From Shewanella sp. 10N.286.48.A6 (GTDB taxonomy: Bacteria > Pseudomonadota > Gammaproteobacteria > Enterobacterales > Shewanellaceae), in contig NZ_MCVI01000009.1 of the NCBI RefSeq assembly GCF_002873135.1, positions 1-64,000 on the forward strand: a DNA stretch of 64,000 bases. The letters are read 5' to 3'. This document shows positions 7,501-56,689 of this stretch, in pieces. The position numbers and the translations under genes were made by a program. The notes beneath the pieces were generated by a model. The model saw only the letters and a list, made by a program, of their open reading frames with translations, searched no databases and was not told the DNA's origin. How positions within the stretch are numbered: position 1 is the first letter of the stretch; each line of letters starts with the position of its first letter.

Positions 7501-8853
7501 ATGACATTATCAGCACGCTTAACAGCCATACCAACAGCATTGTCGATATCACTGGCTTTAGCAGCAACGATAACCACCACCTCGTTACGCGCTGTAGATC
7601 TTGATGATTCAGTGACCAAAGCATTACCACAACTTGAACAGCTTTATACTCACCTTCATCAACACCCTGAACTGTCCTATCAAGAGAAAAATACCAGTGC
7701 CAGAATGGCAAAAGAGTTACGGCAATTAGGTTTTGAAGTCACTGATAATTATGGCGGCTACGGTGTGGTGGGCATATTCAAAAATGGCGACGGGCCTACG
7801 GTGATGATCCGCGCCGATATTGATGCTTTACCTATTATTGAACAAACGGGCAAAGCTTATGCATCGACAGTGACAACCCAAGATGCACATAACAATACTG
7901 TGGGCATTATGCATGGCTGTGGCCATGATATTCATATGACCAGCATGATTGGCGCAGCCGAGCAATTGATGTTGCACAAGTCAGCTTGGCAAGGCACTTT
8001 GATGATGGTAGCCCAGCCTGCAGAAGAAATGGGCGGCGGCGCAAAAGCCATGCTCAAGCAAGGTTTATTTAGCGAGTTTCCCACTCCTGATAAGGTGTTA
8101 GGTTTGCATGTCAGTGCATCTATTCCTGCTGGTAAAGTCGGCTCTATTAGTGGTTATGCATTGGCCAATGTGGATTCGGTGGATATCAGCATTAAAGGCA
8201 AAGGTGGCCATGGTGCTTACCCCCATTTAACTATCGATCCTGTGGTTCTGGCGGCGCGCACAGTATTAGCATTGCAAACCATTCCAAGCCGTGAAGTGTC
8301 ACCCCTTGAGCCAAACGTGGTCACAGTGGGTTCAATTCATGGCGGCTCAAAACATAATATTATTTCCAATGAAGTGAAGCTGCAATTAACTCTGCGATCA
8401 TATAACCCTGAAGTACGTGAGCAGCAAATCGCTGCCATAAAACGTATCACTAAGGGCATTGCGATTAGTGCGGGTTTACCTGATGAACTGATGCCTGAAG
8501 TGTATGTGCATGAAGATGAAAAAATACCTTCGACTTATAATGACCCAGCATTGGCTGCCCAAGTTAAGGCCAGCATTGAAGCTGAACTAGGAAAAGATAA
8601 TGTGGTGCTAGCGCCACAGGTTATGGCCGGAGAAGATTTTGGCTTATATGGCCGAACTGAGCAAAATATTCCGATCACTTTATTTTGGTTAGGGGCTGTT
8701 GAGCCAAGCGTGTATCAAGCCAGTATTGATAGCGGCGACAGCTTGCCATCATTGCATTCGAGTAAGTTTGCCCCAGATTATCCGTTAACTATCAGCACCG
8801 GCGTGCGGGCAATGACACGCGCGGCAATGGATTTGTTTAATAGTAGCAAATAA
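7501..8853 (+). CDS. exported M20 family amidohydrolase/peptidase
   Basis: 450 residues with an N-terminal signal-like hydrophobic segment (about 1-30). The metal-site motif HGCGHDIHMT, the downstream PAEEMGGGAKAML, and the late MAGEDFG segment define the M20D group (aminoacylase, IAA-amino-acid hydrolase, carboxypeptidase Ss1-like). These dimetal enzymes hydrolyse N-acyl or amide bonds of amino acid conjugates. Export suggests scavenging of N-acyl amino acids or short peptides in the periplasm (inference). AGGAAGACACC precedes the ATG. Next gene is ppiB, 101 bases downstream. Confidence 0.9.
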   Translation: MTLSARLTAIPTALSISLALAATITTTSLRAVDLDDSVTKALPQLEQLYTHLHQHPELSYQEKNTSARMAKELRQLGFEVTDNYGGYGVVGIFKNGDGPTVMIRADIDALPIIEQTGKAYASTVTTQDAHNNTVGIMHGCGHDIHMTSMIGAAEQLMLHKSAWQGTLMMVAQPAEEMGGGAKAMLKQGLFSEFPTPDKVLGLHVSASIPAGKVGSISGYALANVDSVDISIKGKGGHGAYPHLTIDPVVLAARTVLALQTIPSREVSPLEPNVVTVGSIHGGSKHNIISNEVKLQLTLRSYNPEVREQQIAAIKRITKGIAISAGLPDELMPEVYVHEDEKIPSTYNDPALAAQVKASIEAELGKDNVVLAPQVMAGEDFGLYGRTEQNIPITLFWLGAVEPSVYQASIDSGDSLPSLHSSKFAPDYPLTISTGVRAMTRAAMDLFNSSK

Positions 8854-8954
8854 GCTTACTTTATCTGACTTAAAGCATGACGCTTATTTATAGCCTGAAG
8901 CATAGGATAAACGCTATAATTGAGCTTAACTTTTCGTTGTTAAATTGAGATCCC

Positions 8955-9449
8955 ATGACCGTTATTTTTACCACCAATGTTGGCGATATCCATATTGAAC
9001 TGGATATGGAAAAAGCCCCTGTTAGTTCGAAGAATTTTTTACAGTACTGTCAGGATGGCTTTTATGATTACACTATTTTTCATCGGGTGATAAAAGGCTT
9101 TATGATCCAAGGGGGTGGTTTTACTGCCAAGATGAAAGAAAAGCCCACTCGCGATCCTATCGTTAATGAAGCTAATCGTGGCTTGAGTAACACACTTGGC
9201 ACCATAGCAATGGCAAGAACCGATGCGCCGCATTCGGCCACCGGGCAGTTTTTTATTAATACTGCTGATAATAGCTTTTTAGACCACACAGCGACCACCA
9301 ACAGCGGTTGGGGTTATGCGGTTTTTGGCAGAGTGGTTGCCGGTATTGAAGTGGTCAAAGAAATTGAAAAAGCTAAAACGGCCACGGTAGCAGGTCATGA
9401 CGATGTGCCTAAAACGGCGATAGTGATTGAGAAAGTCACCATTATCTAG
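8955..9449 (+). CDS. ppiB: peptidyl-prolyl cis-trans isomerase B (cyclophilin)
   Basis: 164 residues, the same length as E. coli PpiB. Cyclophilin core motifs are present: [13 protein letters not shown], the [15 protein letters not shown] active-site strand, and [16 protein letters not shown]. It catalyses isomerisation of X-Pro peptide bonds during folding. No signal peptide, so cytoplasmic. The EcsC-family gene begins 51 bases after the stop and may be co-transcribed. Confidence 0.95.
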
Positions 9450-9500
9450 TGAGCTATTAGCGCTGTTGTTAATCGTGCGGCTGTGAAAGAAGGGAAAGCC

Positions 9501-10280
9501 ATGAGTCTATCTGTAGAAGATAATGCCCAATTAGTGCAGGCTAAGCAGTTACTTGAAAACCCCGGCTTAGCAGCCAAAATCACAGATTTTATTGGCTCGC
9601 CCATTGAGCAAGGTTTTGCGCTACTGCCTAAAAGTGTCAGTAATGGTATTGGCAAAGTCACAGAAATGGCGTTGATGAAAGCCTCGGATGCGGCGCTATT
9701 TACCATGAAAAACATCCCCCATGAGCAATCTTCTGATCGTTGGCACAAACTCGGTGTTGCAGTGAGTGGTGGTGTGGGGGGCTTTTTCGGCTTAAGCGCA
9801 TTGGCATTAGAGCTACCGATTTCAACCACCATCATGTTGCGATCCATTGCCGATATTGCTCGCAGTGAGGGTGAACAACTCGATGAAGTGGCCACTAAAA
9901 TGGCCTGCATAGAAGTCTTTGCCCTAGGGGGTGAGTCAAATGATGACGATCAAGCTGAAAAAGGCTACTTTGCGGTGCGCACCGTGTTAGCCAATTCAAT
10001 TGCTGAAGCCGCTGAATACGTTGCCACTAAAGGCTTTAGTAAAGAAGCTGCGCCAATGATGGTTAAATTAGTGACCGTGGTGGCAGAGCGCTTTGGCGTG
10101 CAGGTGACTCAAAAGGTGGCCGCTCAAGCTGTACCTGCCATAGGCGCTGCGGGTGGGGCGATCATTAACACCTTATTTATCGATCATTTTCAAGACATGG
10201 CAAGAGGCCACTTTATCGTGCGTCGATTAGAAAGGAAATATACTCAGGCCGTCGTTCGTCAAGTATACGATGGGCTATAA
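9501..10280 (+). CDS. EcsC family protein
   Basis: 259 residues from the ATG at 9501; AGAAGGGAAAGCC just before it is a good ribosome site, so the longer GTG start at 9483 is rejected. The sequence has the EcsC pattern: an amphipathic N terminus, a glycine-rich segment (VAVSGGVGGFFGLSALALELPISTTIMLRSIADIAR), an acidic FALGGES segment, and a second glycine/alanine-rich segment (VPAIGAAGGAIINTLF). EcsC is named after the third gene of the Bacillus ecs ABC-transporter locus; its biochemical role is unknown. Probably membrane-associated. No ABC transporter is adjacent. Confidence 0.85.
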   Translation: MSLSVEDNAQLVQAKQLLENPGLAAKITDFIGSPIEQGFALLPKSVSNGIGKVTEMALMKASDAALFTMKNIPHEQSSDRWHKLGVAVSGGVGGFFGLSALALELPISTTIMLRSIADIARSEGEQLDEVATKMACIEVFALGGESNDDDQAEKGYFAVRTVLANSIAEAAEYVATKGFSKEAAPMMVKLVTVVAERFGVQVTQKVAAQAVPAIGAAGGAIINTLFIDHFQDMARGHFIVRRLERKYTQAVVRQVYDGL

Positions 10281-10600
10281 CATAGTTAACAGCGATGCTT
10301 TTGTAGTTGATAACACTATATTATTTGCCAGTTTTGACAAGTATTAGCGGATTTGAAGCATAAAACTTAGCTATAGTTCCTGATTGTTTCGCTCCGAGTC
10401 ATATCCTCATTTTTAGTGGTAGCTAAGTCAACCTATGTTGTTTGATTGATGTTGCAATTTTGTTGGTTTTATTTCAATTGAATCAATTGGTTACGTTTTA
10501 TTATTTTGTGGTTCTAGTCGTTTATTTTATTATATTTTTGCTATAAGGTTTTAGCTTGTTTGAATTTCTTCAAATAAACTAACCCAACAGCGAGCCTGAA
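10281..10600. other. intergenic, AT-rich promoter region
   Basis: 320 bases before the lipoprotein gene. CAATTGAATCAATTG (around 10475) is a short imperfect palindrome, and a GCTATAAGG stretch near 10540 could be a -10 region. Nothing else stands out. Confidence 0.35.
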
Positions 10601-12421
10601 ATGAAAAAAACAACAATAGCCCTTTCTGTATTGTCTGCTATCACTTTTTTATCCGCCTGTAGTAGTGATGATGATAAAAAGCCTGAAGCACCTAAGTCCA
10701 TCACCGCGACATTTATCGATAGCGAAGTAGCGGGATTAGCATTTACTTGTGGTGATGATAGTGGTGTTACAGATACTAATGGTGAATTTACCTTTATTGA
10801 AAATACTGCCTGTGCGTTCGAATTAGGTGGTTTTAAAATAGGCACATCAGCGACGTTGACTGAAGCAGATACAGTGATAACTCCTTATGATATTGCTGAA
10901 AATGCAGACGAAGGTGTCAGAATCGCCTCGCTACTTCAAACGGTTAATATCAAAGGTGATCCTGAAAATGGTATTGATGTGACAGGCTTTGACGGTGGAG
11001 TATTACCAACAAACTTGCTGTCTATGGATGATGATACGTTTATTGCTGAATTAGAAAAGTCTACAGATTTAGTAGCTGTGTCTATTGAAGATGCGAAAGA
11101 ACATTTAGATGGCAATGTGGGGAAATCAAAAGGCTATCATAGTGAGGCTGTTCAAGCGGTTGTTGATGATGCGATAAGCATTGCCGTTGAATTTGAAAAG
11201 GCCAATTATCAATCTAAATTAGCTGAATATCACGCTATTTTAGACAAAGGCGATGACAGTAATAATGCCGATATTGAAACGCTAAAAGCACTTATTGCCA
11301 TTGCTGAGGTGGTGAATGACCCGTTAGTTGCTGAACGTTTAGACATTGAACAAACTGAATTTAACTATACTGAAATGTTGCCTAAGGTTATAGATTCGGT
11401 CATTAATTCGGCTAAAGCTACCTTTGTTGAAGATATTCAAGGTACTACGGATGATATCTCTGCAATATTCTTTAGCATGGCACAAAGATTAGTTGAAGCC
11501 AGTGACAAACTGGGTGTGAGCTTTGTTGATGAAAACTATGTTGCTATGTACCAACAAGATGGTAGTGCAAATATTACCTATAATGATGCACAAAGTATTC
11601 GTGCATCAGCATTGGTACTCGCTAATGGCTTAAGTACTTTTGCAGCGTATCAATTGGGTTCTGATGAGTATTTCTTACCGCAACAGGACACTTTTGAACT
11701 TGATGTTATCAAGAGAACGAGTTCATACGATTCTTCCGGTTCACACTATTATCAGCTTGAAGAAATCAAAATGGATATCGATACTGAATATGACTCCATG
11801 AGTATTAATTCTGGCCTTTACTTAAACGATCCATCAGTGGGACTTTTACGTGAAGACTCGCAGTATTTTGCCTTAGCCCAAAAAGCCCTTACTGAAGCTG
11901 CTGAAATAGGCTTGACAGTTGATCTTGAGCAATTAGGCTTAGAAGCAGATGAAGCTAAAGAGTTACGTCTTTATTTAACGGACTTAAATGCACATTTATC
12001 AGCTGAAGATGGCGTAGCTACTCCATTAGTGATTGCTGACGGTGATCTTAGTTACAGCCTGAACTTGCATGCCTTTTATAATATGGATACAGCAATAGAT
12101 CGAAATGACTTTAGTATTCACGCATATATTGTATGTGATACCAAAGGTAATGAGTGGTCTGAGAAGCTTTCAAAAGTGGTTAATTATGGACTCTGTGGTT
12201 CAGAAGAAAAAGACTATCTGAATAATGGAAGTCTGAACTATAGCTACGTGACTGAGTTCTCCAGTGGTATTGATGATGATGGTCAACGCTACTCGCTTTA
12301 TCTCAAAGGTTATCAATCTTATGCAGATGGCGATATTGAAGAATCTTCAACATCAACGATTGATGATGTCTTGTTAAGTTGTAAGCAGTCAGACGAGGTT
12401 ATTGATTGCAGAGAGTTATAA
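10601..12421 (+). CDS. large exported lipoprotein, unknown function
   Basis: 606 residues. A type II signal peptide ends in the lipobox LSAC with the acylated Cys at residue 20, followed by SSDDDKK; the acidic residues after Cys favour a surface or inner-membrane fate, which cannot be settled. Residues 35-150 form a compact start (FIDSEVAGLAFTCG...TDTNGEFTF...GGFKIGT) of a kind seen in many Shewanella lipoproteins, resembling a carboxypeptidase-regulatory-like beta sandwich. The remainder is acidic, mixed helical, with few cysteines near the end. I recognise no catalytic motif. The next gene overlaps its last 16 bases, so the two are probably translated together. Confidence 0.75.
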   Translation: MKKTTIALSVLSAITFLSACSSDDDKKPEAPKSITATFIDSEVAGLAFTCGDDSGVTDTNGEFTFIENTACAFELGGFKIGTSATLTEADTVITPYDIAENADEGVRIASLLQTVNIKGDPENGIDVTGFDGGVLPTNLLSMDDDTFIAELEKSTDLVAVSIEDAKEHLDGNVGKSKGYHSEAVQAVVDDAISIAVEFEKANYQSKLAEYHAILDKGDDSNNADIETLKALIAIAEVVNDPLVAERLDIEQTEFNYTEMLPKVIDSVINSAKATFVEDIQGTTDDISAIFFSMAQRLVEASDKLGVSFVDENYVAMYQQDGSANITYNDAQSIRASALVLANGLSTFAAYQLGSDEYFLPQQDTFELDVIKRTSSYDSSGSHYYQLEEIKMDIDTEYDSMSINSGLYLNDPSVGLLREDSQYFALAQKALTEAAEIGLTVDLEQLGLEADEAKELRLYLTDLNAHLSAEDGVATPLVIADGDLSYSLNLHAFYNMDTAIDRNDFSIHAYIVCDTKGNEWSEKLSKVVNYGLCGSEEKDYLNNGSLNYSYVTEFSSGIDDDGQRYSLYLKGYQSYADGDIEESSTSTIDDVLLSCKQSDEVIDCREL

Positions 12422-43091: not shown

Positions 43092-43832
43092 TTACTTTTT
43101 AAAAAATGCTTCATTAGTACCATATGGGCCTAAGTTAAGATCGCGCTTACGGATTTCATCTACGCGGTCAAAGGCTTCTTCTGCAACGCGTAGGTTTTTC
43201 ACATCACGGCGCCAGTAGTATTTGAACCCATCGAAGTGAGCATTGTTTGGATACCAGTACATTACACCAAGGCCTTTATCTTCAAGAATTGGCGTGTTAT
43301 GGATCGCATTGCCTGGGATATAGAAATATTGCCCTTTTTCTAATGGTTGGAACTTGTTTTCTGCAAGCGTTTTACTGCCACCGTTTACTACGTAATAACA
43401 CTCAGGTTGGCCGTGGAAATGAGGCTCATGATCTGATTTACCACCGTTAGTAATACCAATAACCACAGGTGAGTCAGCTAAGTCTTTCCAGATGTATCCT
43501 ACTGGAGAGTTAGCTACTTCACAGTTTTTAGCTTCAAGTACGTTGCCTTCATTATCAAGCGTCTTACAAAAACGTTGTTCTTTAGCGATGCTGTCATTGG
43601 CTTGGATTGTGTTGAAGTCAATTTTACCAGCTTCCCAATCAGCGATATAGGCTTCAACTTCTGGGTTACTACACTGCACTGGCATAGTGTTTTGAGGTGC
43701 ATGAACACTGCTGTCAAATGGGACTGGCGTTGTTTGTTGGTATGGAAGCTGTGCATGGTTACATTGTGGACCTTGCGCAACTGCAGCTGTTGATGCAAGT
43801 GCTGCGATACCAAAAATCATTTTAAGTTTCAT
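43092..43832 (-). CDS. secreted single-domain cupin, possible lyase
   Basis: 246 residues; signal peptide about 1-19 (STAAVA). Four cysteines lie in the N-terminal part (24, 54, 89, 104), probably disulfides. The cupin core begins near 105: motif 1 is H138-x-H140-x3-E144-x6-G within HFHGQPECYYVVNG, and motif 2 is GQYFYIPGNAIHN with H178. Together these give a complete 3-His/1-Glu metal site. The H-x3-E-x-Y pattern is also shared by cupin DMSP lyases, but the length is far below that of DddY (~400) and I cannot assign a substrate. Its position beside porins, a tetraheme cytochrome and a flavoprotein suggests it makes or binds the substrate of that system. ATAGGATAAACA precedes the ATG. Confidence 0.75.
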   Translation of the reverse strand: MKLKMIFGIAALASTAAVAQGPQCNHAQLPYQQTTPVPFDSSVHAPQNTMPVQCSNPEVEAYIADWEAGKIDFNTIQANDSIAKEQRFCKTLDNEGNVLEAKNCEVANSPVGYIWKDLADSPVVIGITNGGKSDHEPHFHGQPECYYVVNGGSKTLAENKFQPLEKGQYFYIPGNAIHNTPILEDKGLGVMYWYPNNAHFDGFKYYWRRDVKNLRVAEEAFDRVDEIRKRDLNLGPYGTNEAFFKK

Positions 43833-43911
43833 TGTTTATCCTATTTGGAACTGTGAGATATTAATATTTTTTTGCTATGCCGTAACTATAAATTCATCTT
43901 GGTAACATAAA

Positions 43912-43927
43912 GGTGAAACAGATCACG
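43912..43927. promoter_or_regulatory. CRP-like site upstream of the cupin gene
   Basis: GGTGAAACAGATCACG has GGTGA and TCACG with the canonical 6-base spacing (consensus TGTGA-N6-TCACA), four of five matches in each arm. It lies 80-95 bases before the start codon. Confidence 0.45.
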
Positions 43928-43942
43928 CACGTATAGCAACGA

Positions 43943-43957
43943 CAATTTTATTCGTGA
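43943..43957. promoter_or_regulatory. shared 15-base motif, copy 1 (cupin promoter)
   Basis: CAATTTTATTCGTGA. The identical 15 bases lie at 48525-48539 upstream of the flavoprotein operon, in the same orientation relative to the gene (both genes on the minus strand), 111-125 bases before the cupin start. Confidence 0.65.
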
Positions 43958-44122
43958 CTAGCATCGCTAAATTCCCTGATTTGCGAATGCTTGCAAATAT
44001 TCATTTAATTTATTGTAGTGGATCAATATTTATCAATTTTTTTTGTTAAATCTTAGGGGGGATTCGAAACTCGTTTATCTAACAGATAGATTTATAACAA
44101 GTTATCTATTTTTACTTATTTG

Positions 44123-45205
44123 TTACCTAAATGCGTATTGCATACTGAGTTGCGCGTATTGAGAATGACCAGTGTCTACTTGCTCATTACTGTAACTCGG
44201 TGATTTATCGTTTATTGAGTATTGTCCAATTTCAAATCCAACAGAAAGTTCAGGGGTTAGGTTGGTAAATAAATTCACACCAATGTGATTACGACGAGTT
44301 TGTTCAACCTCTGTAGTGGAATGGCCAATAAAAATCGAACTTCGAAGACGTTGTGTCCAGAAATGACGATAAGCCATCATAGCTGACAACGTGGTTTCTA
44401 ATTCACCATCAATAATATCTTTTGCAACATCAGTCCCAACATAACGCCCTAAATGGCCATAATGCAGTTGCAACCTAAAATCATCTTTACCAAAGGTTCG
44501 AAACTTTCCTGCAATAGAAATCCCTTTGCTCAATTGCTTTGTATCGCCTGGGTCTAAATAACGAATAATGCCTGATGCTGATATATTGCCCCAGTCCCCT
44601 TTCTTGTTATAGCGTACGATGAGGTCAGGAACATAGTCGTTGCGGGTATCAATCCATTCTTGCTGACTTGGCGCGCTACTATTTACAGCATCGGTGCCGT
44701 AGGTATAAGGGTTCTCAAGTGCAAATTGCCAATCGTTATAGGTATAGCGAATTAAAGCTTGTCTGACCATGGCTTGACCAACTAACGGTCCACCTAAATC
44801 AGCTGTTTCAGCAAAAGCAGATGTATTTACCAATGTTGACCAAGTTTGTCCTGCAACCACATCTTGATATTCGATAAAAGCATGTCGTAATCGAGGGCTG
44901 TAGGAATTTGAAATAACAGGGTTGCCTTGGGATGAACCGACAAAGTCCATTTCGATAAACCCTGTTACCTCATTTGATGACACTGCGAGATTTAACCGTG
45001 ATTCTTGCGCGCTGAATTGAGTGCGTTTTGTGGGCTCAGAGATTGAACCTCCGCCTGTCCAAAGGTCTTGAAACTCGACATCACCATTCACGTGGCGAGC
45101 ATTCATTTTTAGAAAACCGCCAAGTTCGACATCCATGGCATGTGAAGAATGAGTAACTACCACCATACAGGCCAGTAGAGGCAGTTTAACAGAAGGTGTT
45201 TTCAT
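44123..45205 (-). CDS. DcaP-like outer-membrane porin
   Basis: 360 residues with a signal peptide (about 1-23, ending SSHA). Features of a 16-stranded porin: MDVELGGFLKMNARHVNG at the start, QESRLNLAVSS, DFVGSSQGNPVISNSYSPRLRHAFIEY, a GQTWSTL strand and a terminal YAQLSMQYAFR with aromatic last residues. DcaP-type porins take up small organic acids, including dicarboxylates. It lies between the cupin and the second porin, with its own upstream region (about 120 bases plus a terminator). That region holds CGGCATCAATT, also found in the flavoprotein promoter. Confidence 0.75.
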   Translation of the reverse strand: MKTPSVKLPLLACMVVVTHSSHAMDVELGGFLKMNARHVNGDVEFQDLWTGGGSISEPTKRTQFSAQESRLNLAVSSNEVTGFIEMDFVGSSQGNPVISNSYSPRLRHAFIEYQDVVAGQTWSTLVNTSAFAETADLGGPLVGQAMVRQALIRYTYNDWQFALENPYTYGTDAVNSSAPSQQEWIDTRNDYVPDLIVRYNKKGDWGNISASGIIRYLDPGDTKQLSKGISIAGKFRTFGKDDFRLQLHYGHLGRYVGTDVAKDIIDGELETTLSAMMAYRHFWTQRLRSSIFIGHSTTEVEQTRRNHIGVNLFTNLTPELSVGFEIGQYSINDKSPSYSNEQVDTGHSQYAQLSMQYAFR

Positions 45206-45283
45206 AGTGGGAATCGGTGCTATTTAGTGGCAAATGACATCGGCATCAATTGAATGTGCCAATGATTGATTTGAAAGGGTGGC

Positions 45284-45326
45284 AAAAAAACAGGCAGAAA
45301 CTAAGAAGTAAAATTTTCTGCCTGCT
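45284..45326 (-). terminator. intrinsic terminator of the flavoprotein-cytochrome-porin operon
   Basis: On the minus strand CAGGCAGAAA and TTTCTGCCTG form a 10-bp stem followed by a run of seven T. It separates the porin at 45378-46508 from the next porin. Confidence 0.88.
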
Positions 45327-45377
45327 TGAGAGGCTATTTCATTAACCGTTTTATTAACGGATTTGGTTATGACTTAA

Positions 45378-46508
45378 TTAGAAGTAGTAACCAAAGTTAA
45401 TGTTAATACGTTTGTCCCAATCATCGCCAAGCTCAGGCAAGCCTACGTGGTCATTATTAGCGGTAGAAAACGTCATGTTTTTACCAAGAATAAAGTCAAT
45501 CATGGTGTAAGTCGCACCCGCTGAAATTGCACAACCAGTGACGTTTTGCATGCTGTTGTCATAGCGGTCATCAGCAACGTCAGGCGTCATTAAACCGAAA
45601 TCGTTGTAACATTTTACGCTACCGAAATCAGTGGCAAAGGTTTTAGCGATGTTAGCGCTATAGGCTTGGCCTTTAGAGGCGATTTCATATTGCCAGCTCA
45701 CGACAGCAATACCGATTTTATTGTCGTCAGCAGAATCGGCCGCGTCATATTCGTATTGCATAGCTTGCAGTTGCAAGTTCCAGCCTTTGTAAGTGCTGTC
45801 TAAATGAAGGGCAGCAGCATAACGGTCGCCCATGTTACCTGTGTCACTGTTATAGATTTGACCGTATTGAACAGAACCGCCAAATGTAGTTGAACCGCCT
45901 TCATATTCAGAAGTATAGGTTTGTCTAAAGTTAAAGCCATTGGTTTCTTCGTTGTGGTATTCAGTGCCATTGATTTCGCCACTGAATAATGACGCTGAAT
46001 AACGCTTGTTTTCAGTTGCACTGTAAACAGGATTTTTGTAGAACGCGAGATCAGTATTCCAGCCGTTATTGTCGTATGAAGCTTTAATACCTACATCATG
46101 ATTATCTTCAAAACCTAGGTAGTAAGGTAAACCAAACCACCAACTGTTAGAGATAAACTCTGGGTTACCAAAAGGCACTTTGTTGATACCAAATTGAAGT
46201 TCCCAGTTAGGATTAATCTCATAGTAACCATAACCTGATTTGATGTAATTACTGCCAGCGGTAAAACGATATTCTGCGGCTAAACCCCAGTCACCTTTTT
46301 TACCATCAAACGTAATCGCAGCCATATCAAAATCTAATGTACCTAATTTATCTTTATTAGATTCATCATAGTCTCTGTAAGCGTAGTTTACGCGAACAGC
46401 ACCTCCGATATTAATCCCATCTTCTTGCTCTTCTGCCATAACAGGCGCAGAAGACATAGCAACAGCTGTGGCCACCATCGACAACATAAATTTGGCGGTT
46501 TTTTTCAT
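45378..46508 (-). CDS. outer-membrane porin (OprP/OprO-like phosphate-selective type)
   Basis: 376 residues from the internal ATG at 46508, preceded by ATAGGAATGATA. Signal peptide to about residue 26 (MSSAPVMA). The mature part has repeated alternating strands (IGGAVRVNYAYRDYDES, DWGLAAEYRFTAGSNYI, GINKVPFGNPEF) and ends in NINFGYYF. The fold resembles OprP/OprO-type trimeric porins, though substrate need not be phosphate. It begins 33-39 bases after the cytochrome gene, so it shares the operon with the flavoprotein. Confidence 0.78.
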   Translation of the reverse strand: MKKTAKFMLSMVATAVAMSSAPVMAEEQEDGINIGGAVRVNYAYRDYDESNKDKLGTLDFDMAAITFDGKKGDWGLAAEYRFTAGSNYIKSGYGYYEINPNWELQFGINKVPFGNPEFISNSWWFGLPYYLGFEDNHDVGIKASYDNNGWNTDLAFYKNPVYSATENKRYSASLFSGEINGTEYHNEETNGFNFRQTYTSEYEGGSTTFGGSVQYGQIYNSDTGNMGDRYAAALHLDSTYKGWNLQLQAMQYEYDAADSADDNKIGIAVVSWQYEIASKGQAYSANIAKTFATDFGSVKCYNDFGLMTPDVADDRYDNSMQNVTGCAISAGATYTMIDFILGKNMTFSTANNDHVGLPELGDDWDKRININFGYYF

Positions 46509-46546
46509 TATCATTCCTATAAAATCATTGTTATTTTATTGTGGTG

Positions 46547-46915
46547 TTACATTTCATGGAACCAAGTACGGTGACAGTCAGCACAAATCGGAGCTTTCTT
46601 TTTATGCTCGCTATGACATGCTAAACAGCTTGCGCCTTCGTTATAATGCAAAGACTTGTGTGGGTGTGCTTCTGGTACTGCTAAAATTGATTCATCAATT
46701 TCAATTGTTTCAACAGTGCCATGACATGCCACGCAGGCCTCATCTGTGGTATTCGCTCTTGGTGAACCTTGATGGCAAGCATTACAGCCATCTTGATAAA
46801 GCATCTCGTGGTTCACCCTGCCTTGTGTTTTCCCTTTGACGGTATAAAGCTCACCCGCATTAGCGGTGGCTAAAAACGCAGTAGATAAAAAAGCGACTAG
46901 TAATAATTTTTTCAT
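46547..46915 (-). CDS. periplasmic tetraheme cytochrome c
   Basis: 122 residues; signal peptide 1-20. Four heme motifs: CNACH 44-48, CVACH 61-65, CLACH 97-101 and CADCH 111-115, with free His nearby (HPHKSLHY, HSEH) for bis-His ligation. The layout matches the heme domain of the flavocytochrome c family (FccA, UrdA) and the separate cytochrome subunit of the methacrylate reductase type. It should carry electrons, probably from CymA, to the flavoprotein encoded 11 bases upstream. Envelope electron carrier by family knowledge. Confidence 0.92.
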   Translation of the reverse strand: MKKLLLVAFLSTAFLATANAGELYTVKGKTQGRVNHEMLYQDGCNACHQGSPRANTTDEACVACHGTVETIEIDESILAVPEAHPHKSLHYNEGASCLACHSEHKKKAPICADCHRTWFHEM

Positions 46916-46926
46916 GGTGGTTCAGC

Positions 46927-48438
46927 CTACAAATCAGATTTAACGGTTTCAGAAACGATAATGCCCATTGCTAAGCACTCAAGACATGAGGTCGAACTTA
47001 AGCGAGCTTCACCATGAATGCCGCCAGTTGACTCACCGATGGCATACATTTTTCTAATCGGTTTCATTGACCGACCATCAATCACGCGGCCACCTAAATC
47101 TGTTTTTAATCCGCCCATGCAGTAATGCACTTTTGGCCAAATACGTGACACAACAAATGGTCCTGTTAGTACTTCAGCAGTGTCCATCTTACGGTTGAAT
47201 AACGGATCGTTTCTGTCTACAACATGCTGGTTATATTCAGCAATTGTCTTTTTAAGTTCTGTTACTGAAATATCAAACTTCTCGGCAACGTCATCTAGAG
47301 TGTCCAATTTCCAAGCCATTTCATCGCGTATTGAACGAACAACACGGTCATCGTCTTTGTAGTTTTCGTAATTGAACAATACAATCGGATAAGCTGGACT
47401 GTTGTCTTCGTAACGATTTTTCATAATCGCTTCTGAGCAGGTTTTGCGATCTGCACGCTCATCCATAAAGCGTTTACCGTTTAACACACTGATCGCAGCG
47501 CCTTGATGCCAGCCGATTGATAGTAGGGCATTAGACCAACCAAAACCGCCTTCATCAGGTGAGCCCCAATGACCAGTTTGGATTAAGTTCATGTGAACAG
47601 GTAACGCGCCATTAGCCATTGCAGTTAAGGTGACTTCACCTGTTGCACCGTGGGCATTGGTACAATCTAATGTTGGATCAAGTGATGGGTCGACAACTTG
47701 GCGTAATTCCATATTCTGGGCAAAACCACCGTGGGCGAGAATAACGGCTTTGTTGGCCTTGATATAGATTGTTTTACCGGTTTTAAGATCTGGGTAACGA
47801 TAATTCTGTCTTACCTTCACACCAACGATCTCTTGACCGTTCATAATGAAATCTTCGATGTAATGTTGTAGGCGGTATTCCACGCCTGCTTTTTTACCTG
47901 CTTCGAATAATTTAGTGGTGATATCGCCGCCAGTACCGTGCTGGGTTCTGATTGCACGAGCTTTATTATGGCCACCTACTTGAATGTTAAAACCTTCGCG
48001 GAATTTCACACCGGTTTCGATACATAGGTCATACGAGTCTAATGAACGGTTAGCGATGGTTCTCAGCATATCGTCATTTTGCATGCCTCTGCCTGAGATG
48101 ATTTGGTCTTTAACTAACTCTTCTGGTGAGTCATCGTTAATACCTTGCGCTAATTGAATTGGATTTTGAGGAATAGCTAGCCAACCGCCATTAATTGCAG
48201 AGTTGCCACCAATTACTTGCATTTTCTCTAATACAAGTACGCTGCCAAGTTGTTGCTTTTTGGCATTAATAGCAGCCGATAAGCCAGCAAAACCAGAACC
48301 AACAACGAGAGTATCAACTGATTCATCCCAGTTAATTTCATTGCATTGACTTTGTTGTGCGCTAGCAGGCATTGCTACTGCTAATCCACCGATTGCGGCA
48401 CCAGCGCTTAATTTTAAAAAGTTACGTCTGTTTTGCAT
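46927..48438 (-). CDS. Tat-exported flavoprotein reductase of the fumarate-reductase type
   Basis: 503 residues. A Tat signal (RRNFLK at 4-9, then hydrophobic and PASAQ) sends the folded protein to the periplasm. FAD binding: VVGSGFAGLSAA (GSGFAG 47-52). Fumarate-reductase-type catalytic elements: R331 in DERADRK (proton-donor Arg in FccA), H438 in KVHYCMGG and R479 in GIHGEARL. The segment corresponding to the FccA QxHPT loop reads LIQTGHWGSP, so the substrate pocket differs from fumarate. Reduces an activated C=C bond with electrons from the neighbouring tetraheme cytochrome (inference from family). GCGAGGAAAGATAA precedes the ATG. First gene of the operon. Confidence 0.88.
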   Translation of the reverse strand: MQNRRNFLKLSAGAAIGGLAVAMPASAQQSQCNEINWDESVDTLVVGSGFAGLSAAINAKKQQLGSVLVLEKMQVIGGNSAINGGWLAIPQNPIQLAQGINDDSPEELVKDQIISGRGMQNDDMLRTIANRSLDSYDLCIETGVKFREGFNIQVGGHNKARAIRTQHGTGGDITTKLFEAGKKAGVEYRLQHYIEDFIMNGQEIVGVKVRQNYRYPDLKTGKTIYIKANKAVILAHGGFAQNMELRQVVDPSLDPTLDCTNAHGATGEVTLTAMANGALPVHMNLIQTGHWGSPDEGGFGWSNALLSIGWHQGAAISVLNGKRFMDERADRKTCSEAIMKNRYEDNSPAYPIVLFNYENYKDDDRVVRSIRDEMAWKLDTLDDVAEKFDISVTELKKTIAEYNQHVVDRNDPLFNRKMDTAEVLTGPFVVSRIWPKVHYCMGGLKTDLGGRVIDGRSMKPIRKMYAIGESTGGIHGEARLSSTSCLECLAMGIIVSETVKSDL

Positions 48439-48761
48439 TTATCTTTCCTCGCATTTTGATGCGACTAAGATAAACAAATTGATGCCGTCCAAATTTGAAT
48501 GGCATCACGCTTTTTTTGGGGGGGCAATTTTATTCGTGAAGTGGGTCAAGAACATTGTTCATGAGCTACTGAGTTATCAATGCGTTTTTACGTGAATAAA
48601 CGGGAGTTAATTATCACTATTGAAATAAGATATGAGCTGAATCACAAAGACCAATGAAAAAGCTTAATGAGCGTGAACTTAATCCCGATTATCTACCGAT
48701 GTTATACCTATAAAGAGTAATAAGGATGATAATTGAGTTAATCAAATATTAGGTATGCATT
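48439..48761. promoter_or_regulatory. divergent promoter region of flavoprotein operon and tetR
   Basis: GATGCC (48481-48486) and GGCATC (48501-48506) bound an almost perfect 26-base palindrome whose centre is CAAATTTG; it lies 43-68 bases before the flavoprotein start and is the best TetR operator candidate. Further: the shared 15-base motif at 48525-48539; GAACATTGTTC at 48550-48560; and GAATAAA at 48594-48600 facing TTTATTC at 48529-48535. Confidence 0.6.
48525..48539. promoter_or_regulatory. shared 15-base motif, copy 2 (flavoprotein promoter)
   Basis: CAATTTTATTCGTGA, identical to 43943-43957, located 87-101 bases before the flavoprotein start. Confidence 0.65.
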
Positions 48762-49547
48762 ATGAAATGTCCTACAGAACCATTGACGCAACTTAGATGC
48801 GATCAAATTTTAGATGTTGCCGAAGGCCTAATTGAATCTCAAGGAATAGTGTCATTTAAATTTTCACAAATTGCTAAAGATGTTGGTTGCTCAACAGGCA
48901 CTTTATATAAGTTATTCGAGCGTAAAGAAGATGTATTAGTGTGTTTGTTCTTACGCAGTGCCACCTCTAATTATATGCCATTATTTGTTGAAAAAAATCC
49001 AGAGTTGACGGCGCAAGAAAGATTATTACTGCCTATTTTATTTACTTTTGAAACCATCAAAAGAAGCAAAAGTTTTTTTACGCTAAGATCGGTTTCCGTC
49101 AATGCGATGATTTGGAAACTCGCTAGCGACAATAAAGTAAAGATGTTTAAACAGCGAATTAATTCGTTTTGGCAATGGTTAACTGATGCTGTGAATTTAG
49201 CGATTGAAAATGGCGAATTAGAAGCAACGCCACTGCAAGCTAAGGAGTTGGTTCAGGGAATTACCTTTTATTTAACAGGCTCTCTTACTCAGTTTGAAAG
49301 TAAGCTTATTTCTTCAGAATTTTTATCTGATCAAAGTACCACTTGCTATAGACACCTTTCCAGATTAATGGCGCAATATAATTGGAGAACGCCACTGACT
49401 CAGGAGCTATTTTCTAGTCTTGAATCTAGAACAGCTTCATTTTTTCATAAGAACTACAAAAAGCACCTTACTTGCCGTGCCTGTAAGGACTTATCTGATT
49501 CATTAGATGCGGCCGGCCGTGGTTACTCGGGATGTTCTAACTGTTAA
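48762..49547 (+). CDS. TetR family regulator with C-terminal cysteine pairs
   Basis: 261 residues, longer than the usual ~200. The N-terminal HTH is standard (ILDVAEGLIESQGIVSFKFSQIAKDVGCSTGTLYKLFERKEDVL). A ligand-binding helical domain follows. The last 25 residues are unusual: CRAC (238-241) and CSNC (258-261), two CXXC pairs separated by 16 residues, giving a potential zinc or Fe-S or redox centre. It is divergent from the flavoprotein operon, so local control is likely; the signal could be the substrate, redox state or metal. A perfect inverted repeat overlaps its stop codon. Confidence 0.88.
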   Translation: MKCPTEPLTQLRCDQILDVAEGLIESQGIVSFKFSQIAKDVGCSTGTLYKLFERKEDVLVCLFLRSATSNYMPLFVEKNPELTAQERLLLPILFTFETIKRSKSFFTLRSVSVNAMIWKLASDNKVKMFKQRINSFWQWLTDAVNLAIENGELEATPLQAKELVQGITFYLTGSLTQFESKLISSEFLSDQSTTCYRHLSRLMAQYNWRTPLTQELFSSLESRTASFFHKNYKKHLTCRACKDLSDSLDAAGRGYSGCSNC

Positions 49548-54301: not shown

Positions 54302-56689
54302 TTAACTTAAAGCATAACCACCTTTAAGGTGGGCAATATTATCAAAGCCTAAGCGCTGCATGGCTTGGGCTGCCACCATTGAGCGGCTACCACTACGGCA
54401 CACTAACACCCAAGGTTTATGTTTTTGGTGTTGGTGTTGCTGAATAAACTGCACTAAACGGGTTAGTGGCACATTCTCACTGGAGCTACTGGTGTGTTGC
54501 AGTGCGTATTCATGGGGCTCACGAATATCAATTAAGCTGACTTGTTGTGATGATAAAGCGCTGCTTAAGCTCTCTGTGTTGTATTCGGTAATATTCACTT
54601 TAGCTGCAGCGTTAGCTGGCAATGCGCCACAAAGAATTTCACTGCCTGACTTATCACACAACTGACTATCAAGCTGGGCTTTTAGGCTTTCAAATTGGCT
54701 TTGGCTTAATTGGCCATTTAAGGTGTTGGCCAGCAGTGCATTACGGCTAGATTCAGCTGCTAATGAGGTCGTAAACTCATTGTTATAGTCATGGCTGGCA
54801 CAAATCAGGGTGTTGTCACCGATCAGCTGATGCAGTCGCTTAAGGCTGGTAAACATCGCTTTAGCGCAGCTGCTGTCAAAGTTGGTTCTACCGAGACTGC
54901 CCATTAAAACGATGTCACCAGCAAAGGCAAAGCGGCATTGCAGATTAATTGGTTGAGAGGCCGATACTGCTTCAGGTGATTCATCAGTCGATTTATTAGG
55001 TAACTCATTAGGTAACTCATTAGGTAACTCATTAGATAATTCATTAGAAAATGGGTCACATAACAGCAAGCTAATACTGTCGGCAGTATGGCCTGGGGTG
55101 GCAACGTTAAGCAGTGCTTGATTGCCAATAGTGATGTACTCAAACAACTCGCCCGCTTGGGTGACGTTACTGCAGTTTTGCGGCCAGCCTAAATGATCAC
55201 TTAATTGATCCGGCAAATGTTTGTCGGCAAGGAATTGACGACTAGAGACATGATCGGCATGACCATGGGTGTCGATCACCGCCACTAATTCAAGTTGCTG
55301 ACATTGCAATAGGGTATCTAAGCGTTCATTTAGTTCTGGCAGCGGATCGATGATCACCGCTTGCTTACTTTGTTGATCGGCATAAATCCAACTACAGCTC
55401 GGGCCTGAGCGTAATTGAACCAAACCATTTAATGGCTGTTTTTCGCTTATTTCACCACTGTCTAAAATCATACAGCTATGGGTTAATGCATTGGCGGCAG
55501 ATTGAATTCTGATGCAGGCTTCATCCACCTGCGTTTGAGTCATGGCTGGGCCAAAAGACATTCTGATGGCTGATTCGCTTTGCCATTTGGGTAATCCCAT
55601 GGCATCTAATACAAAGCTACGGGTCACTTTTGATGAACAAGCCGAGCCTGAGCTGACGCGAATATTGGCGGCATCAAATAAATCCATAATCTCTTTGCTA
55701 CTAAAGCCTGCAATAGCAAAGTTGATGGTTGTTGGCACGCTATTGCTAAAACTGTGGTTAAACACTACGGCAGGAAAAGCACTTTTAAGGGTATCAATTA
55801 ATTGTTGTTGATAAGCCCTTAAGGTGTCGACATCGGCAAACTGGCTTTTATTGGTTGATTGCGAGTTATTTAACAGCATATCGAAAATGACATTTATGGC
55901 TGCCATGCCCGGTAAGTTTTCAGTACCCGAGCGCAGGCCGCTTTCTTGGCCGCCGCCAGCAATAATCGGCGTAAATGGAGCACCTTCGCGGATATAAACA
56001 AAGCCAATGCCTTTAGGGGCATACAGTTTATGGCCGCTAAAAGGCGCGTAATCGATACTGGTGTTGGCTAAGTTTAATGCCGTTTTACCCAGTGCTTGGA
56101 CACAATCAACTAACCAATAGATAGCTGGGTTGGCTTGGCGGATGATGCTATCAAGCTGAGTTAAGTCTTGGTAAACCCCGGTTTCATTGTTTACTGCCAT
56201 GGTGCAAATCATTAATGCATTGGGCGCTTCTTTAGCAATAAAGTCCTGATCAAGATTACCCATATGATCAACGGGGATCGCTTTAATTTCTGCGTTTATT
56301 TCAAGAAGGGCATTCCAATGCTTTAAGGATTCTGGCACCGCTTTATGCTCAGTGGCGCCATATAACAAGCTGTATGTTTGATCTTGCTTGAGGCTAGTTT
56401 TAGCGGCAGCTTTAGCCGCGACTAAGGCGGAAATGATCGCGGTTTGAATCCCTTCTGTGGCGCCGCTGGTAAAAATAACGGTACCTGTGTCAGCGCCAAT
56501 CACTTGTTTAGCTTTTACCCGAGTTTGCTCCATCAGGTTTTTGGCTTTAAGGCCGCTGATATGGCTACTACTTGGGTTACCAAATAGGGTTTCCATTGTA
56601 GTTAATGCTGCCGTTGCAGCTTGGGGTAGCACAGGAGTTGTGGCATTAGCATCGAGATATATTTGGCTTAGTTCAGTGGCGCTTTTCAT
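54302..56689 (-). CDS. fusion: cysteine desulfurase + ETHE1-like persulfide dioxygenase + rhodanese
   Basis: 795 residues in three domains. (1) 1-400, class V aminotransferase fold: IYLDANATTPV start, PLP lysine in PFSGHKLYAPKG (~218) and catalytic Cys in SSGSACSSK (~350), so a cysteine desulfurase. (2) ~420-665, metallo-beta-lactamase fold: DTHGHADH (~473), TPGHTADS, FAGDIVLMGSLGRTNF and CASHDYN match ETHE1-type persulfide dioxygenases. (3) ~695-795, rhodanese: active-site loop VCRSGSRS (~765). Expected flow: Cys sulfur becomes a persulfide, the middle domain oxidises persulfide to sulfite, the last transfers sulfane sulfur. A low-complexity insert (NELPNELPNEL) interrupts domain 2. There is no strong ribosome site. 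Cytoplasmic. Confidence 0.9.
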   Translation of the reverse strand: MKSATELSQIYLDANATTPVLPQAATAALTTMETLFGNPSSSHISGLKAKNLMEQTRVKAKQVIGADTGTVIFTSGATEGIQTAIISALVAAKAAAKTSLKQDQTYSLLYGATEHKAVPESLKHWNALLEINAEIKAIPVDHMGNLDQDFIAKEAPNALMICTMAVNNETGVYQDLTQLDSIIRQANPAIYWLVDCVQALGKTALNLANTSIDYAPFSGHKLYAPKGIGFVYIREGAPFTPIIAGGGQESGLRSGTENLPGMAAINVIFDMLLNNSQSTNKSQFADVDTLRAYQQQLIDTLKSAFPAVVFNHSFSNSVPTTINFAIAGFSSKEIMDLFDAANIRVSSGSACSSKVTRSFVLDAMGLPKWQSESAIRMSFGPAMTQTQVDEACIRIQSAANALTHSCMILDSGEISEKQPLNGLVQLRSGPSCSWIYADQQSKQAVIIDPLPELNERLDTLLQCQQLELVAVIDTHGHADHVSSRQFLADKHLPDQLSDHLGWPQNCSNVTQAGELFEYITIGNQALLNVATPGHTADSISLLLCDPFSNELSNELPNELPNELPNKSTDESPEAVSASQPINLQCRFAFAGDIVLMGSLGRTNFDSSCAKAMFTSLKRLHQLIGDNTLICASHDYNNEFTTSLAAESSRNALLANTLNGQLSQSQFESLKAQLDSQLCDKSGSEILCGALPANAAAKVNITEYNTESLSSALSSQQVSLIDIREPHEYALQHTSSSSENVPLTRLVQFIQQHQHQKHKPWVLVCRSGSRSMVAAQAMQRLGFDNIAHLKGGYALS
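54996..55043 (+). repeat. 12-base in-frame tandem repeat in the fusion gene
   Basis: TTAGGTAACTCA three times (54996-55007, 55008-55019, 55020-55031), then a diverged unit TTAGATAATTCA (55032-55043). On the coding strand it encodes NEL plus P or S, four residues per unit, inside the dioxygenase-like domain. Confidence 0.9.

Follow-up and report, generated by a model that had tools for sequence, protein, structure and literature searches.

A DddK-like cupin and an ArdA-like flavoprotein in a predicted periplasmic lyase–reductase module of Shewanella

Introduction

The ArdAB proteins of Shewanella woodyi are reportedly the subject of a published biochemical report, and a published study is also said to deal with cupins that resemble dimethylsulfoniopropionate (DMSP) lyases. 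For Shewanella sp. MR4, a dddY–acuI–fccA–fccB linkage has been drawn (PMC3338564). In Geobacter sulfurreducens AM-1, the methacrylate redox system Mrd/Mcc has a separate flavoprotein and tetraheme cytochrome, and the two kinds of gene cluster have been compared (PMC4427408). The SAR11 lyase DddK is reported to be more efficient on dimethylsulfoxonium propionate (DMSOP) than on DMSP (PMC10686828). Here we analyze six open reading frames (ORFs) at positions 43092 to 49547 of a 64,000-nucleotide stretch of Shewanella sp. 10N.286.48.A6 (contig NZ_MCVI01000009.1; hereafter the window), which encode a secreted cupin, two candidate channel proteins, a tetraheme cytochrome, a flavoprotein exported by the twin-arginine translocation (Tat) pathway and a TetR-family regulator.

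We propose that these genes probably form a respiratory module of two transcription units, in which a periplasmic cupin lyase would release a 2-enoate and the flavoprotein–tetraheme pair would respire it. Judged from sequence, the module is a second build of the DddY–ArdAB plan with other enzymes, having a distinct cupin family, reductase clade and promoter element. In both arrangements a Tat flavoprotein and a tetraheme cytochrome adjoin a (here predicted) periplasmic lyase that carries HxHxxxExY, and in two Shewanella loci (L066 and L073) copies of the channel candidate porinB, 63–66% identical to the window's, adjoin ArdA–ArdB–DddY, after DddY. However, the window cupin has 246 residues against 414 in DddY, with no profile relation; the window flavoprotein is about 40% identical to ArdA and belongs to a clade of its own; the regulators differ, ArdA loci carrying LysR- and TetR-like genes (by reading); and no acuI-like ORF was noticed beside the window module. 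No publication on this cupin module was found among the matches listed in a literature survey, most subscription journals lying outside its reach.

Results

Among PDB entries, the cupin is closest to the DMSP lyase DddK

A preliminary description of this stretch, made from the sequence alone, had noted a DMSP-lyase-like H-x3-E-x-Y core in the cupin. Our data agree with this: HxHxxxExY is present, together with a Sec-type leader (both by reading), and DddK ranked first in a PDB sequence search and in both fold comparisons, the predicted fold being related to solved DMSP lyases. The score against Pfam Cupin_2 lies just below the cut-off (26 bits against 27.2), and no match to the curated DMSP-lyase models, Pfam PF16867 or those of NCBIfam, was found at E 0.001. 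The metal ligands of DddK are kept as H138, H140, E144 and H178, and so are its two key tyrosines, the catalytic one (Y146) and the carboxylate-binding one (Y205); ligands and tyrosines alike are invariant across the cupin paralogues. At the aromatic positions, Y205 and W193 are invariant and F200 nearly so, the DddK cage residue Phe108 is Met191 in the window protein, and Tyr21 and Trp26 are unaligned. The window cupin further differs from DddK in its secretion leader, in about 68 extra residues before and 32 after the aligned part, and in four cysteines invariant in this type of cupin (cupin1); identity is 23–26%.

The cupin was also considered as a DddY or a DddY fragment, and this was ruled out: it falls well short of about 400 residues, matches neither NF053571 nor NF043049 and showed no relation by hhalign, in a test that is weak in having only two DddY rows in the profile. 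The earlier remark that the protein is too short for DddY thus stands. No DddY entry was among the matches listed in the fold comparisons, which excludes nothing.

The flavoprotein has an ArdA-like active site

The flavoprotein matches TIGR01813 with 516.6 bits (cut-off 285.45) and carries the Tat motif RRNFLK (by reading), and the adjoining cytochrome has four CxxCH motifs and scores over the Cytochrom_c3_2 cut-off. A Tat flavoprotein with a separate tetraheme subunit is the ArdAB-type layout. Among the best 120 matches, the clade of the window flavoprotein (flavo1) comprises sequences of at least 61% identity, followed by a drop to 43%; the group after that drop includes an S. woodyi protein labelled by its source 'Acrylate reductase flavoprotein subunit'. 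In a tree of 36 sequences, for which the tool warned of long branches, flavo1 formed a clade of 14 (support 100/100) separate from the ArdA clade; its sister group combines ArdA with a paralogous flavoprotein (flavo2). One ArdA-like sequence fell outside both groups. This protein (519 residues, 49% identical to ArdA; locus L069, genome G066) is encoded together with a 561-residue ORF and a tetraheme cytochrome at 8175–12024, and is possibly a further enoate reductase.

In an active-site alignment, R331 and R479 occupy the columns of R402 and R544 of fumarate reductase (numbering of the S. frigidimarina enzyme, here and below), so the arginine pair is kept. The fumarate-binding His365 and His504 are replaced by G289 and Y439, as in ArdA. 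The columns of Thr377, Glu378 and Arg381 hold S302, N303 and W310, in a part where the alignment is uncertain; Ser is also found there in IfcA. Two signatures, IQxGxWxSPDEGGFG and KVHYCxGG, are common to flavo1 and S. woodyi ArdA. Replacement of both histidines and the ArdA-like signature point to a small enoate with a single carboxylate as the predicted substrate, and away from dicarboxylates, fumarate included. Fumarate, reduction of which alone the preliminary description had named as an adverse result, fits the site badly. Among the substrates proposed there, the active site is compatible with acrylate- or methacrylate-like acids, and urocanate and cinnamate found no support: nothing favours either, and the signature follows ArdA, not FccA or UrdA (the latter from a single alignment only).

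The fumarate reductases FccA and IfcA and the urocanate reductase UrdA share TIGR01813 with the window protein and align with it across the flavin adenine dinucleotide (FAD) domain. The genome's own FccA- and IfcA-like proteins, in contrast to the window protein, have a fused heme domain. PMC4427408 describes Mrd as having Trp in place of one fumarate-binding His and as keeping the Arg pair; at that position the window protein reads G-H-W, and it has the Arg pair as well. The passages of that paper used here mention no lyase neighbouring Mrd/Mcc, and the two systems are compared by description.

Besides the module, the window genome (4.65 Mb in 104 contigs) encodes an ArdAB orthologue, with its ArdA split over two contigs, and the FccA- and IfcA-like proteins. 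Three NapC/NirT-type proteins score over cut-off, which would provide a CymA-like, quinol-linking role, and two DmsA-type reductases score over their family cut-off. Outside the Gammaproteobacteria, Desulfuromonas versatilis (P0078) has a flavoprotein 70% identical to the window's, which suggests horizontal transfer; no D. versatilis cupin was among the matches listed for the cupin.

Cupin and flavoprotein genes are linked across genomes

A scan of GTDB genomes with a cupin alignment gave 42 cupin loci. In 37 of them the cupin is clustered with flavoprotein and tetraheme genes, which is more than chance; one of these, L015, has an interrupted flavoprotein frame. Two further loci (L016 and L032) stop at a contig edge, L049 has partial matches almost 10 kb off, and L046 (Falsirhodobacter) and L047 (Granulosicoccaceae) have none. 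The neighbours of these last two orphan cupins differ, with no common partner (by reading). Most Shewanella loci run TetR, then flavoprotein–tetraheme–porinB–porinA–cupin, and the Ferrimonas order is flavoprotein–tetraheme–cupin, often with porinB adjoining.

A full cupin was found in 45 of 129 Shewanella genomes, and all 45 also have the flavoprotein clade; the two genes lie within 6 kb in 43 genomes and on separate contigs in the remaining two. The flavoprotein clade occurs in 8 of the 84 genomes without a full cupin (Fisher p about 7e-27, ignoring relatedness). The full-cupin set omits G068 (truncated match) and G091 (fragment); with both included, the table reads 46/1/7/75. The flavoprotein match of G055 covers residues 181–502 only.

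Eight loci with the flavoprotein and no cupin (L055–L062, from seven genomes) were read. They keep porinA in L056, L057 and L058 and porinB in L055, and L060 and L062 have a major facilitator-type transporter (by reading). None of the ORFs read stood out as a substitute lyase; two of the loci, L056 and L059, are short contigs (6091 and 3390 bases). In G104, one of the seven genomes, the cupin may only be missing from the assembly, because a palindromic element like the one upstream of the cupin (see below) was found on another contig (C189).

DddY was identified in S. woodyi-type loci (PDB 5y4k, E 6.7e-63; NF053571 over cut-off) and in 55 of the 129 genomes. Among the matches listed, it lies within 4 kb of a same-strand ArdA-like gene in at least 51 of the 55, and the remaining four matches start within 1.5 kb of the contig's first base. 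This linkage provides a direct precedent, in the same genus, for lyase–reductase coupling. DddY is also present in 31 of the 45 full-cupin genomes; the window genome has no DddY match.

A paired palindrome precedes cupin and flavoprotein genes

Palindromes of the form CGTGA-N6-TCACG lie between the TetR and flavoprotein genes in 34 intergenic regions (33 distinct, since L064 is the contig of L017). The two that are proximal to the flavoprotein are 41 bp apart in all 34 (up to three mismatches), and at one mismatch 84 sites were counted, against a mean of 0.25 in 20 shuffles. A strict pair pattern was built from the TetR and flavoprotein sides only and then run over the 129 Shewanella genomes, so that matches at the cupin are independent of its design. 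After merging of five overlapping double matches, 134 of 139 were left. Of these, 81 precede the flavoprotein by no more than 700 bp (46 of 53 genomes) and 43 lie 82–109 bp upstream of the cupin (43 of the 45 full-cupin genomes, no strict match being found there in G047 and G055). Ten lie elsewhere, and the reversed pattern gave 7 matches in total, the background level. Among the ten, one precedes a decayed flavoprotein (G019), one is a TetR-side pair past the 700-bp limit (G034), and two resemble module elements in sequence (G015 and G104). By this pattern, cupin and flavoprotein probably form one regulon that reaches hardly any other locus. Since the element stands upstream of both genes and is at background elsewhere, their co-expression is likely; separate expression, the other result named beforehand as adverse, is made unlikely, short of exclusion. 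At eight Ferrimonas-type loci, no clear palindrome pair was seen in the one stretch checked.

Seven intergenic regions between TetR2 and flavo2, of the paralogous module described below, are without such palindromes, which favours the module's own TetR as the binder. The half-sites also resemble CRP sites, and, judged by the consensus sequences for CRP and FNR, one TetR-side site is CRP-like; CRP sites are known to occur in tandem. The predicted binder would thus be the module's TetR or CRP. The regulator scores over the Pfam cut-off for TetR_N, and its cysteines 3, 13, 61, 238 and 241, the last two in a C-terminal CxxC, are kept in 43 to 46 of 46 aligned relatives, consistent with a possible sensor of metal, redox state or electrophiles.

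Paralogous modules

In many species a paralogous module lies directly upstream, with flavo2, a second tetraheme cytochrome, cupin2, a DUF3299 protein (assigned from a Pfam run on one protein) and often a second porinB. Identity to the window proteins is 35–37% for flavo2 and 31–34% for cupin2. The latter was found in 12 of the 42 cupin loci and in 24 of the 129 Shewanella genomes, and some loci have flavo2 and its cytochrome without cupin2 (e.g. L026 and L036). Comparison of cupin1 and cupin2 gave an hhalign probability of 99.9 over 177 columns, so that they are homologous along most of their length; the cupin family is therefore paired with an ArdA-like flavoprotein in two lineages.

At about 10.9 kb in L077 (genome G019) module 1 has decayed to a 176-residue flavoprotein remnant, its promoter element persists, and the adjoining module 2 looks whole. 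A third cupin paralogue, 44% identical to cupin2, occurs in Shewanella G041 and G110 (L074 and L075) with TetR and DUF3299-like genes and no flavoprotein. It is flanked by EutA/arylmalonate-decarboxylase-like, DoeA-like M24, DoeB2-like M20 and EamA genes, an ectoine-utilisation-like layout in which the ectoine-specific NCBIfam matches are below their cut-offs.

Layout of the locus

The adjacency of cupin, two porins, tetraheme cytochrome, Tat flavoprotein and TetR given in the preliminary description holds as far as the six ORFs and their positions go (Table 1), and the porin assignment of porinB is by reading alone: neither Pfam nor NCBIfam gave a match to this protein, and none in the PDB was convincing. 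PorinA matches DcaP below the Pfam cut-off and the DcaP-like PDB entry 6eus at E 1.1e-6. Transcription on the minus strand runs from the flavoprotein through the tetraheme cytochrome, porinB and porinA to the cupin, with gaps of 11, 32, 172 and 290 bp, and 323 bp separate the flavoprotein from the divergent TetR gene. Of the named relatives found, Shewanella sp. TC10 is the nearest, with a cupin identity of 98%. Elsewhere in the window, at 54302–56689, a 795-residue ORF resembles, by reading, a fusion of a cysteine desulfurase with parts of the metallo-beta-lactamase and rhodanese kinds.

Table 1. Positions in the window of the module's genes and promoter elements.
Feature	Position	Strand	Basis
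Secreted DMSP-lyase-like cupin, predicted beta-eliminating lyase, 246 aa	43092..43832	-	sequence, fold, conserved residues
Paired palindromic element 5' of cupin	43912..43968	-	16-bp sites 43912-43927 and 43953-43968, 41 bp apart
PorinA, DcaP-like outer-membrane channel	44123..45205	-	Pfam below cut-off, PDB match
PorinB, conserved outer-membrane channel candidate	45378..46514	-	reading; no family match
Secreted tetraheme cytochrome c, predicted electron donor, 122 aa	46547..46915	-	four CxxCH, Cytochrom_c3_2
Tat-exported FAD flavoprotein, flavocytochrome c family, 503 aa	46927..48438	-	TIGR01813; ArdA-like active site R331, R479, G289, Y439
Paired palindromic element 5' of flavoprotein	48494..48550	-	48494-48509 and 48535-48550, 41 bp apart
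Second element pair, TetR side	48631..48687	-	48672-48687; 48631-48646 nearer CRP consensus, one mismatch
Divergent TetR-family regulator	48762..49547	+	TetR_N over cut-off; Cys 3, 13, 61, CxxC 238/241

Discussion

From the computed gene set, its conservation and linkage, the shared cis-element, the conserved catalytic residues and the predicted fold, we infer a lyase reaction, its enoate product, an electron route and a binding regulator. A zwitterionic onium carboxylate similar to DMSP would enter the periplasm through the DcaP-like porinA and the candidate channel porinB. There the metal cupin would bind its carboxylate, Tyr146 would take the alpha proton, as the conserved residues suggest, and the cationic leaving group, held in an aromatic cage, would depart to give a 2-enoate such as acrylate or a near relative of it. 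This enoate would be the terminal electron acceptor: the Tat flavoprotein, judged by its family and active site, would saturate it, drawing on quinol-pool electrons that reach it by way of a NapC/CymA-type protein and then the tetraheme cytochrome. Either the divergent TetR or CRP would act at the paired palindromes before both transcription units. The coupling of cleavage and respiration put forward in the preliminary description is thus well supported at the genomic level by the DddK-like cupin, the ArdA-like site, the linkage, the cis-element and the DddY–ArdA parallel; as a whole, that interpretation is partly supported.

The presence of DddY in 31 of the 45 full-cupin genomes suggests that the cupin substrate may differ from DMSP. 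We tentatively put a little below even the chance that the module releases and respires something other than DMSP-derived acrylate, that is, an unrecognised precursor-fed acceptor used beside DddY–ArdAB in the same cells. DMSOP may be one candidate precursor; nitrogen betaines and branched sulfonio acids are candidates on the same footing. Cleavage of DMSOP would yield acrylate and dimethyl sulfoxide, so that both products could be respired, given the two DmsA-type reductases of the window genome. Alternatively, the module could be a second DMSP lyase/acrylate reductase system, equal to DddY–ArdAB and set apart by affinity or regulation. The catalytic residues are the same as those of DddK, the porinB family is common to two DddY loci, and in the window genome, which has an ArdAB orthologue and no DddY, the cupin could supply acrylate. 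However, two full systems for one compound seem less likely to coexist for long, as they would have to in the many genomes that also encode DddY, and the flavoprotein clade stands apart from ArdA with full support. We regard this alternative as rather doubtful; being a narrow form of the proposed module, it shares part of that module's probability.

Departing further from the proposed module, the cupin could be an isomerase, a dioxygenase or a sugar-acid enzyme, with the flavoprotein acting on something else under the same regulator. The cupin fold is promiscuous, and isomerases, KdgF and quercetinases come after DddK in the fold list. In Falsirhodobacter sp. alg1 (L046, 10001–12521) the cupin is followed by an ORF resembling an alginate lyase of family 7 that carries an F5/8 type C domain (by reading), with no flavoprotein near, and the third cupin paralogue stands among ectoine-utilisation-like genes, also without one. 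The invariance of all metal ligands and both DddK key tyrosines across the cupin paralogues, and the first rank of DddK in the sequence and both fold comparisons, make a function other than that of a lyase improbable. Least probable, in our view, is a reductase that merely detoxifies an electrophilic enoate made by the cupin, with no role in respiration. A related reductase is suggested to have evolved for converting toxic, lyase-formed acrylate into a less toxic compound (PMC4427408), and Escherichia coli yhdH (YhdH) mutants are given as hypersensitive to acrylate (PMC3338564). However, respiratory reductases such as Mrd have the same layout, in which a flavoprotein in the periplasm is accompanied by a dedicated tetraheme donor, and an enoate formed outside the cytoplasm would leave the cell little to gain from detoxification alone.

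If the proposed lyase–reductase module is correct, roughly one Shewanella species in three (45 of 129 genomes) is predicted to have a dedicated, co-regulated route, mostly alongside the known DMSP route, by which an osmolyte-like precursor would yield, in the periplasm, an electron acceptor for respiration. The promoter element, being specific to the locus, and the contrast between species that have DddY and those that lack it open the question to direct testing. Should the substrate prove new, the cupin would represent a new enzyme family of the DMSP-lyase kind, and the module would further connect the turnover of marine osmolytes with anaerobic respiration.

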